Assembly: GCA_030065915.1 (NCBI GenBank)
Contig: JASJCQ010000016.1
Span: 1 to 64,000 of the forward strand
Direction of reading: 5' to 3'
DNA from: Woeseiaceae bacterium
Lineage (GTDB): Bacteria > Pseudomonadota > Gammaproteobacteria > Steroidobacterales > Woeseiaceae
Length of the DNA: 64,000 nucleotides
This document shows positions 3,377 to 4,440 of this stretch, piece by piece. Numbering within the stretch: position 1 is the stretch's first letter; every line of letters begins with the position of its first letter. The position numbers and the translations under genes are program-made. A model generated the notes under the pieces. The model ran no database searches, was not told the DNA's origin, and saw only the letters and a program-made list of their open reading frames with translations.

Positions 3377-3694
3377 TTGCGGATTGATCTTTAGTCACTC
3401 ATCTGAGGGGAGCGATGGACTCGAATCGCCTTTGGGCGATTCTCGGGGTTACGTCCCGCCGGGCAAGCCGGCGTCTAAAACGCTGGCGCGTTTTGTTGAA
3501 CCCAGTCCGCCCTCGGTGCTAACAGCACCAATTCGGCTCCTTGCGGATTGATCTTCAGTGATTAACCCGACAGTCGGGATTGATTCGAATCGGCTTTGGC
3601 CGATTCTCACCCCTGCGGGGCGCCGGGCAAGCCGGCGTCTAAAACGCTTTCGCGTTTTATCGAACCGGAGGGTTCGCCTCTCCAGCTCTCTTCG
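3377..3694. repeat. Two diverged ~164-bp repeat copies rich in hairpins (copy A from 3377, copy B from 3541)
   Basis: Shared blocks ttgcggattgatctt, gaatcg.ctttgg.cgattctc, cgccgggcaagccggcgtctaaaacgct..cgcgtttt. Offset between copies is 164 bp. Confidence 0.8.
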
Positions 3695-3695
3695 T

Positions 3696-3739
3696 CAGAA
3701 ACAAAAAAGGCCCCTCTCGAGGGGCCTTTTTTGTTTCTG
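3696..3739. terminator. Bidirectional intrinsic terminator abutting the tRNA-Ser 3' end
   Basis: cagaaacaaaaaaggcccctc-tc-gaggggccttttttgtttctg: 21-bp perfect inverted repeat with A6/T6 tracts; overlaps the encoded CCA. Confidence 0.85.
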
Positions 3740-3828
3740 GCGGAGAGAGAGGGATTCGAACCCTCGATACGCTATTAACGTATACTCCCTTAGCAGGGGA
3801 GCGCTTTCGACCACTCAGCCATCTCTCC
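3738..3828 (-). tRNA. tRNA-Ser (anticodon GCU), CCA encoded
   Basis: Reverse complement GGAGAGATGGCTGAGTGGTCGAAAGCGCTCCCCTGCTAAGGGAGTATACG...CGAGGGTTCGAATCCCTCTCTCTCCGCCA; class II long variable arm; loop CTGCTAA. Confidence 0.96.
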
Positions 3829-4144
3829 GAATTCTGGTTTTCAATTTTCGTCAACGCTTAGCCAACTGCACCACAGGTTGCCGGGGAGCGCGTTGACTCG
3901 TCGCTTTGCTCCTCGCCCTTCGGCCGCCCTTCGGGCGTCTGTCGGTGCTTCGCACCTCGGATCGACCACTCAGCCATCTCTCCGAATTCTGGTTTTCAAT
4001 TTTCGTCAACGCTTAGCCAACTGTGCCGCAGGTTCCGGGGAGCGCGTTGACTCGTCGCTTTGCTCCTCGGCCTTCGGCCGCCCTTCGGGCGTCTGTCGGT
4101 GCTTCGCACCTCGGATCGACCACTCAGCCATCTCTCCGAATTCT
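3808..4144 (-). repeat. Tandem ~155-bp repeat (units from 3808, 3963 and partial from 4117), each with the first ~21 nt of tRNA-Ser
   Basis: cgaccactcagccatctctccgaattct recurs at 3808, 3963 and 4117; the first two units share the spacer ggttttcaattttcgtcaacgcttagccaactg...ggagcgcgttgactcgtcgctttgctcctcg..cttcggccgcccttcgggcgtctgtcggtgcttcgcacctcggat. Confidence 0.9.
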
Positions 4145-4222
4145 TACTGTTTTTCACACCCACAAAAAACGGTGCGACCCAAATGGGGCGCACAGTTTAC
4201 TGACCGGGATAAGAGAGGTAAA

Positions 4223-4236
4223 GCCTGCGTGCAGGC
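4223..4236 (-). terminator. Hairpin immediately after the csrA stop codon
   Basis: GCCTGC-AC-GCAGGC followed by TTT on the minus strand, directly after the TAG stop. Confidence 0.5.
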
Positions 4237-4440
4237 CTAATCGCCTCCAGCGGAGGCTTCCGCTGAATCTCCAGACTGTTCGCTCTGGATTCGCTCAAAT
4301 ATCTCTTCGCGGTGCACGGCAACGTCTTTTGGCGCGTTGATGCCGATGCGCACCTGATTCCCTTTCACCCCTAAAACGGTGATCGTTACATCGCTCCCGA
4401 TCATGACCGTTTCACCGGCGCGTCGCGTAAGAATCAGCAT
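4237..4440 (-). CDS. csrA: Carbon storage regulator CsrA
   Basis: [51 protein letters not shown]: canonical CsrA, adjacent to alaS as in many gammaproteobacteria. Confidence 0.98.

Follow-up and report, generated by a model that had tools for sequence, protein, structure and literature searches.

A hairpin array beside a Woeseiaceae tRNA-Ser gene as a candidate RtT-type element in the loops of partial tRNA copies

We describe a hairpin array beside the tRNA-Ser(GCT) gene of a Woeseiaceae bacterium and interpret it, with a probability of roughly 0.55, as a set of RtT-type, tRNA-linked elements, in which partial copies of the neighbouring tRNA carry, in a hairpin loop, a self-folding DNA module that has a fixed orientation and may spread by selfish copying. 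The module has a constant frame, with four hairpins standing between GGTTCGA (or GGTTCAA) and GARTCA-ATCC. Evidence for this reading comes from the split tRNA copies that enclose the modules, the balance of mismatches in their stems, the composition of their loops and their patchy distribution.

Hairpin arrays on both sides of tRNA-Ser(GCT)

In the window, by which we mean the whole 64,000-nt stretch that was analysed, the anchor gene is an intact tRNA-Ser(GCT) at 3738..3828 on the minus strand (ARAGORN; Rfam tRNA 63.4 bits), and the sense strand of every module is the tRNA strand, here minus. The earlier note had placed the array beyond a strong terminator on that strand, and indeed a terminator-like strong palindrome with T runs on both sides, GGCCCCTC..GAGGGGCC at 3700..3735(-), separates the tRNA from the first module, B. 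This palindrome is also the centre of a 36-nt inverted repeat (3681-3716 with 3719-3754, 89% complementary) that covers both the terminator and the tRNA-Ser 3' end. Next comes an inverted remnant complementary to the 3' part of the tRNA (3663..3699(-), inverted repeats I1 and I2), which runs into a GAACC-CTCC-GGTTC hairpin (3663-3675) ahead of module B. E. coli tyrT and loci from the class show the same arrangement, an inverted tRNA remnant and a hairpin before a module.

Modules were searched for in two ways, by a DNA search and with R1, a covariance model whose seven input modules all come from this genome. Module B (3576..3666(-), R1 108.7 bits) consists of GGTTCGA, four hairpins at plus-strand coordinates 3641-3658, about 3621-3637, 3610-3620 and 3587-3606, and GAATCA-ATCCC. 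Module A (3412..3502(-), R1 97.1 bits) is a second four-hairpin copy with compensatory changes relative to B, and the two lie 72-236 nt downstream of the tRNA, forming a 126-nt direct repeat of 78% identity at a spacing of 164 nt. All hairpins quoted in the earlier note, which had reported two copies about 164 bp apart with a compensatory stem change, were located again, including GCCGG/CCGGC, AAAACGC/GCGTTTT and the hairpin that reads GAATCGCC-TTTG-GGCGATTC in copy A (3423-3442) and GAATCGGC-TTTG-GCCGATTC in copy B (3587-3606). Between the modules lies a linker (3504..3549(-)), recognised by sequence comparison, closed by an AATCCGC..GCGGACT stem (plus 3543-3549 with 3504-3510) and recurring at the tRNA-Met and tRNA-Gln copies of the same genome. 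Against shuffles, the single-strand fold of copy B has a z of -4.4 when computed as RNA and of -5.3 when computed as DNA, and that of the copy A region has a z of -4.8; no shuffle folded as well as either copy. The copy of the tRNA 3' end that follows each window module has decayed, with 6/16 and 7/16 matches.

Two simpler accounts were rejected. Protein coding fails, as the earlier note had held, in that the ORFs over the array are mechanical and extend across the tRNA and its terminator. Nor are the hairpins of the modules simple intrinsic terminators, with no T runs after them on the tRNA strand and loops unlike those of true terminators. The open frames over arrays and tRNA at 3558-3896, 3878-4240 and 4023-4340, all on the plus strand, are likewise mechanical and could get annotated as spurious hypothetical proteins. 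Separately, Rfam sX4 (RF02223, 'Proteobacterial sRNA') matches the tRNA-Ser gene with its trailer at 3672-3845(-), with 45.9 bits against a cut-off of 70, and the sX4 family model itself resembles a tRNA-Ser locus.

A second hairpin array, missed by the earlier note along with the nature of the copies as split-loop tRNA remnants, occupies about 3838-4144(-) on the upstream side of tRNA-Ser. It comprises two 154-bp units, each of which opens with the first 22 nt of tRNA-Ser, split in the D loop. In the proximal unit the partial tRNA copy (3962..3983(-), direct repeat D3, 94% identity) ends in the D loop with GGTCGA and is followed by a D-loop-splitting module (3894..3961(-)) and then by ACGCGCTCCCC, where the intact tRNA has GGTCGAAAGCGCTCCCC; in the distal unit the partial copy lies at 4116..4137(-) and its D-loop-splitting module at 4048..4115(-), within a 110-nt repeat of 99% identity (D2). 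The upstream array apparently sits between a conserved tRNA promoter region (TTTACC..CAGTAAACTG, present also in loci L010 and L011) and the intact tRNA, a position from which it would probably be transcribed in the leader.

Split tRNA copies and their distribution

Of the 119 modules examined, 94 share the strand of a tRNA no more than 500 nt away, 79 of them downstream (median 71 nt) and 15 upstream; a single module has the opposite orientation relative to the tRNA, and the 24 for which ARAGORN gives no tRNA mostly show tRNA or tmRNA remnants by eye. Such strict orientation means that the underlying process tells strands apart. A downstream module has as its right flank the 3' end of the tRNA at that same locus, perfect over 16 nt in 28/79 cases; the mean match is 11.8, against 7.4 for other isotypes, and 0/1000 permutations reached as high a value. 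CCA-bearing tRNA 3' ends follow many modules, and an intact tRNA 3' copy is present at tRNA-Ser(TGA) of the same genome. Pairing in an outer helix that involves the tRNA 3' copy includes 49 G-U and 31 A-C mismatches; a fully conserved acceptor-like outer helix was considered and found partial support only.

On the other side of the module, pseudo-tRNAs equal the intact neighbour up to the cut, as in L144 (73/73) and L183 (58/58). A partial tRNA copy stands beside an intact tRNA, and its usual split site is the T loop, giving the order GGTTCGA, module, ATCC..CCA. Other copies are split in the D loop or in the anticodon loop (CTTGGA/AAGCGAG and CCTGATTCGA/AATCAGG, the slash marking the split), and in the pseudo-tRNAs of L177 and L137 the D, anticodon and T loops are all split while the anticodon and T stems stay intact. 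Left-flank positions were checked with a second model, R2, that lacks flanks: strong matches fall in loops rather than stems, and in the same loops as before, and weak matches (11/14), which shuffled controls also yield (21/120), were not relied on. A pseudo-tRNA plus its module reads as an intact tRNA interrupted cleanly, bar one ambiguous A, and free of target-site duplication. Insertion points lie just 3' of an A in loops, with no fixed 4-5 nt target beyond that final A.

R1 finds 27 places in this genome, where modules adjoin tRNA-Met, Ser, Gln, Glu, Arg and Pro genes as well as the tmRNA 3' end. By AlaS, the genomes nearest to this one (78-81% identity) are Woeseiaceae. Within the family, modules occur in 79/101 genomes and 11/12 genera, and R1 found none in a genus with small genomes (1-2 Mb). 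They are scattered through 49/370 genomes of the class Gammaproteobacteria, and a phylum sample added 12 module-bearing genomes, all of a single family from outside the class. Since some contigs end inside arrays, the copy numbers are minimum values. Orthologous loci differ in whether they carry a module. For example, tRNA-Ser(GCT) carries none in two Woeseiaceae relatives, and tRNA-Arg carries one in only one of these two.

Several single loci deserve mention. In a Woeseiaceae relative, the tandem unit at tRNA-Arg(ACG) (L010, 10380-10800) repeats the tRNA 3' end together with the terminator and shows the downstream type clearly and intact. In this genome, tmRNA-like 3' ends (GAGTTCGATTCTCGCC..CCACCA) are followed by modules at two loci (L105, about 1200-1800, on contig C36; L107, 1-700, on contig C23), which suggests two ssrA copies or an assembly split. 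In the family outside the class, one module lies downstream of tRNA-Ser(GGA) (L296), and sequence resembling a 4.5S RNA gene follows the module in L295 and L296.

Signatures of pairing and competing explanations

The earlier note had proposed a whole-genome search for copies followed by covariance analysis. Carried out on 133 distinct modules, this found changes on both sides in 30/31 pairs; double-change cells numbered 446, where shuffles gave 123 +/- 9. For 65 modules of genomes outside the family the corresponding figures were 423 and 105 +/- 8. These alignments were fitted to a model that favours pairing, with slid controls and shuffles far lower. The excess shows that hairpin pairing is preserved, and to that extent the earlier suggestion of selection on RNA or hairpin structure stands; selection on RNA was not established, given the equal G-U and A-C counts and DNA-type loops described below.

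A hairpin kept for its RNA is expected to tolerate G-U over A-C mismatches. Module stems hold 35 G-U and 38 A-C mismatches (95% interval of the G-U share 0.36-0.60), and intact tRNAs at the same loci, taken as a control, hold 26 and 3 (Fisher p = 1e-4 against the module stems). Outside the family the counts are 13 G-U and 6 A-C, small and underpowered numbers that lean the RNA way. Most loops have the form C(GNA)G or C(GNNA)G: 106/153 triloops are GNA (13/118 in shuffles) and 105/211 tetraloops are GNNA (14/112 in shuffles), just 27 of these GNNA loops being GNRA, and one loop being UUCG. Neighbouring terminators have no GNA or GNNA loops. Loops of these two kinds form extraordinarily stable DNA mini-hairpins (PMC4686876), and they are not confined to DNA. 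Taken together, mismatch symmetry, loop type and patchy presence at orthologous tRNAs favour a DNA-level element. We therefore consider a DNA hairpin module with a set strand orientation, one that invades the hairpin loops of tRNAs, a better account than a conserved regulatory RNA.

How such a module might behave can be outlined. The module itself (C-H1-H2-H3-H4-GARTCA) would be self-folding, non-coding and probably selfish DNA. Its copies would enter, without duplicating the target, loops that extrude from the non-template strand where tRNA genes are heavily transcribed; the route could be strand-specific insertion, or else template switching at the TTCRA/ATC loop sequence that module and target share. 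Copies would survive only where an intact tRNA persists, and arrays would grow afterwards by tandem duplication. Stem arms could remain perfect because palindrome-directed repair or copying, or else selection on the hairpin as DNA, restores pairing on both strands, and an RNA product such as E. coli RttR may be a by-product or a secondary use.

The chief competitor, possible though distinctly on the improbable side, is a functional structured RNA, in which module and tRNA-derived 3' end are freed from the pre-tRNA by tRNA-processing enzymes and serve as a regulator or decoy, a role reportedly proposed for the E. coli rtT RNA. Covariation in 30/31 pairs, the single orientation on the tRNA strand and the CCA-ended tRNA 3' ends after many modules would all suit it, as would the annotation of the E. 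coli repeats that R1 finds with RttR and the sRNA name carried by RF02902. The G-U lean of both the outer helix (49 vs 31) and the stems outside the family (13 vs 6) counts against our own reading. Against it count the want of a G-U excess in module stems as a whole, loops that are not of RNA type, modules placed past a strong terminator, the loss of the tRNA 3' end in the window copies (6/16, 7/16) and the patchiness across orthologous tRNA loci. Perfect palindromes with pair flips and few wobble intermediates, strand-symmetric mismatches and the 36-nt inverted repeat over terminator and tRNA 3' end could also be read as by-products of replication, in which inverted repeats arise and become perfect through template switching and unequal exchange provoked by terminator and tRNA palindromes, the module having neither function nor dedicated mobility. 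We consider this unlikely: one module, its four hairpins always in the same order, is found at different isotypes, in all three kinds of tRNA loop (D, anticodon and T) and across many families, so that a defined unit must have been copied.

Movement by a Y1 (TnpA/RAYT) transposase, as a non-autonomous element of REP or IS200/IS605 type, would account for clean insertion just 3' of an A in loops without target duplication and for the one strand orientation, and a single Y1 gene does occur in this genome. We nevertheless rate it less likely still, since several module-rich genomes have no detectable Y1 gene and the insertion points share no fixed 4-5 nt target past the final A. In the survey of 101 family genomes, Y1 genes were present in 64 and went undetected in module-rich G039 (10 modules) and G061 (12 modules), and the survey identified no mobilising enzyme. 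Recent within-genome bursts were considered as well and rejected: modules are no more alike within a genome than between genomes, in a comparison biased by weak matches kept for this genome only, and show no clustering by genome that would point to such bursts. This result and the failure to identify a mobilising enzyme both count against our own reading.

Relation to RtT, AaHKsRNA22 and other elements

The window array is best filed as RtT kind, on the strength of shared architecture and with scores below the RF00391 threshold: against a gathering score of 45 bits, RtT reaches 17.1 over module B, 26.8 over the proximal upstream unit (3879-3994) and 23.4 over the distal one (4031-4148), and its search of this genome gave no match at E<=1e-3. 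In the opposite direction, R1 matches three E. coli tyrTV repeats at E 0.0007-0.0035 and a fourth at 0.29, in register with RtT. The E. coli tyrT repeats, which are annotated with an RNA product, RttR, run from the tRNA 3' end through a spacer, an inverted tRNA part with GGATGAGAA, then GGTTCGAC, hairpins and GAGTAATCC, to a copied tRNA 3' end. The window modules resemble them in their location beside the tRNA, their tRNA strand and their GGTTCGA, the 3' tRNA copy having decayed, and differ from RtT in that modules occur at many isotypes and also split anticodon and D loops. These tRNA-side repeats of E. coli and the modules appear to be of one kind. RtT itself matches in 51/276 class genomes, 18 of them above cut-off, with tRNAs at nearly all RtT loci examined, and several R1 matches coincide with RtT or RF02902 matches in other genomes; the RtT kind is apparently much wider than recorded.

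The earlier note had found no known RNA family for the array, a statement overturned by AaHKsRNA22 (RF02902), which matches copy B at 3571-3671(-) with 45.8 bits against a cut-off of 39.8; copy A falls short, with 24 bits over 3391-3505. RF02902, named as an Aggregatibacter sRNA, has four hairpins in the same order as the modules, but in the genome richest in it (G321) the copies are dispersed, 12/13 having no tRNA in the fetched locus, whereas the copies described here are tRNA-linked. The G321 copies begin with a Pasteurellaceae-type uptake-signal word, AAGTGCGGT (L264-L293), and L275, L281 and L286 seem to have the module inside the loop of a terminator-like hairpin formed by that word.

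Other small elements offer looser parallels. REP/BIME palindromes and IS200/IS605 MITEs are also small intergenic hairpin DNA of single orientation and without target duplication; the modules differ as four ordered hairpins inside tRNA loops, for which a linked transposase was not established. Integrative elements that target tRNA genes leave displaced tRNA 3' ends beside intact tRNAs and use T-loop and anticodon-loop sites, as the modules do, yet a module measures 70-90 bp, carries no integrase and is enclosed by a split tRNA copy, not by attachment sites. We found no description of loop-split tRNA copies or of these repeats in the open-access papers searched, among which older tyrT work is sparse.

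More tentatively, and at clearly worse than even odds, these observations may delineate a hitherto unrecognised group of DNA hairpin modules, mobile or spreading by copying, whose targets are hairpin loops (those of tRNAs, all three of them, the T-loop of tmRNA and perhaps the loops of terminators). The group would extend across the Gammaproteobacteria and a second class of the phylum, and RtT and RF02902 would be two isolated sightings of it. The two Rfam families (RF00391, RF02902) may need joint reconsideration. The strong covariation found here can accompany a DNA-type signature, and covariation is by itself insufficient to call an RNA gene. For the E. coli tyrT repeats we know of no accepted function or origin; placing them within a broad set of loop-splitting tRNA elements would supply many natural examples in which both origin and function become testable.
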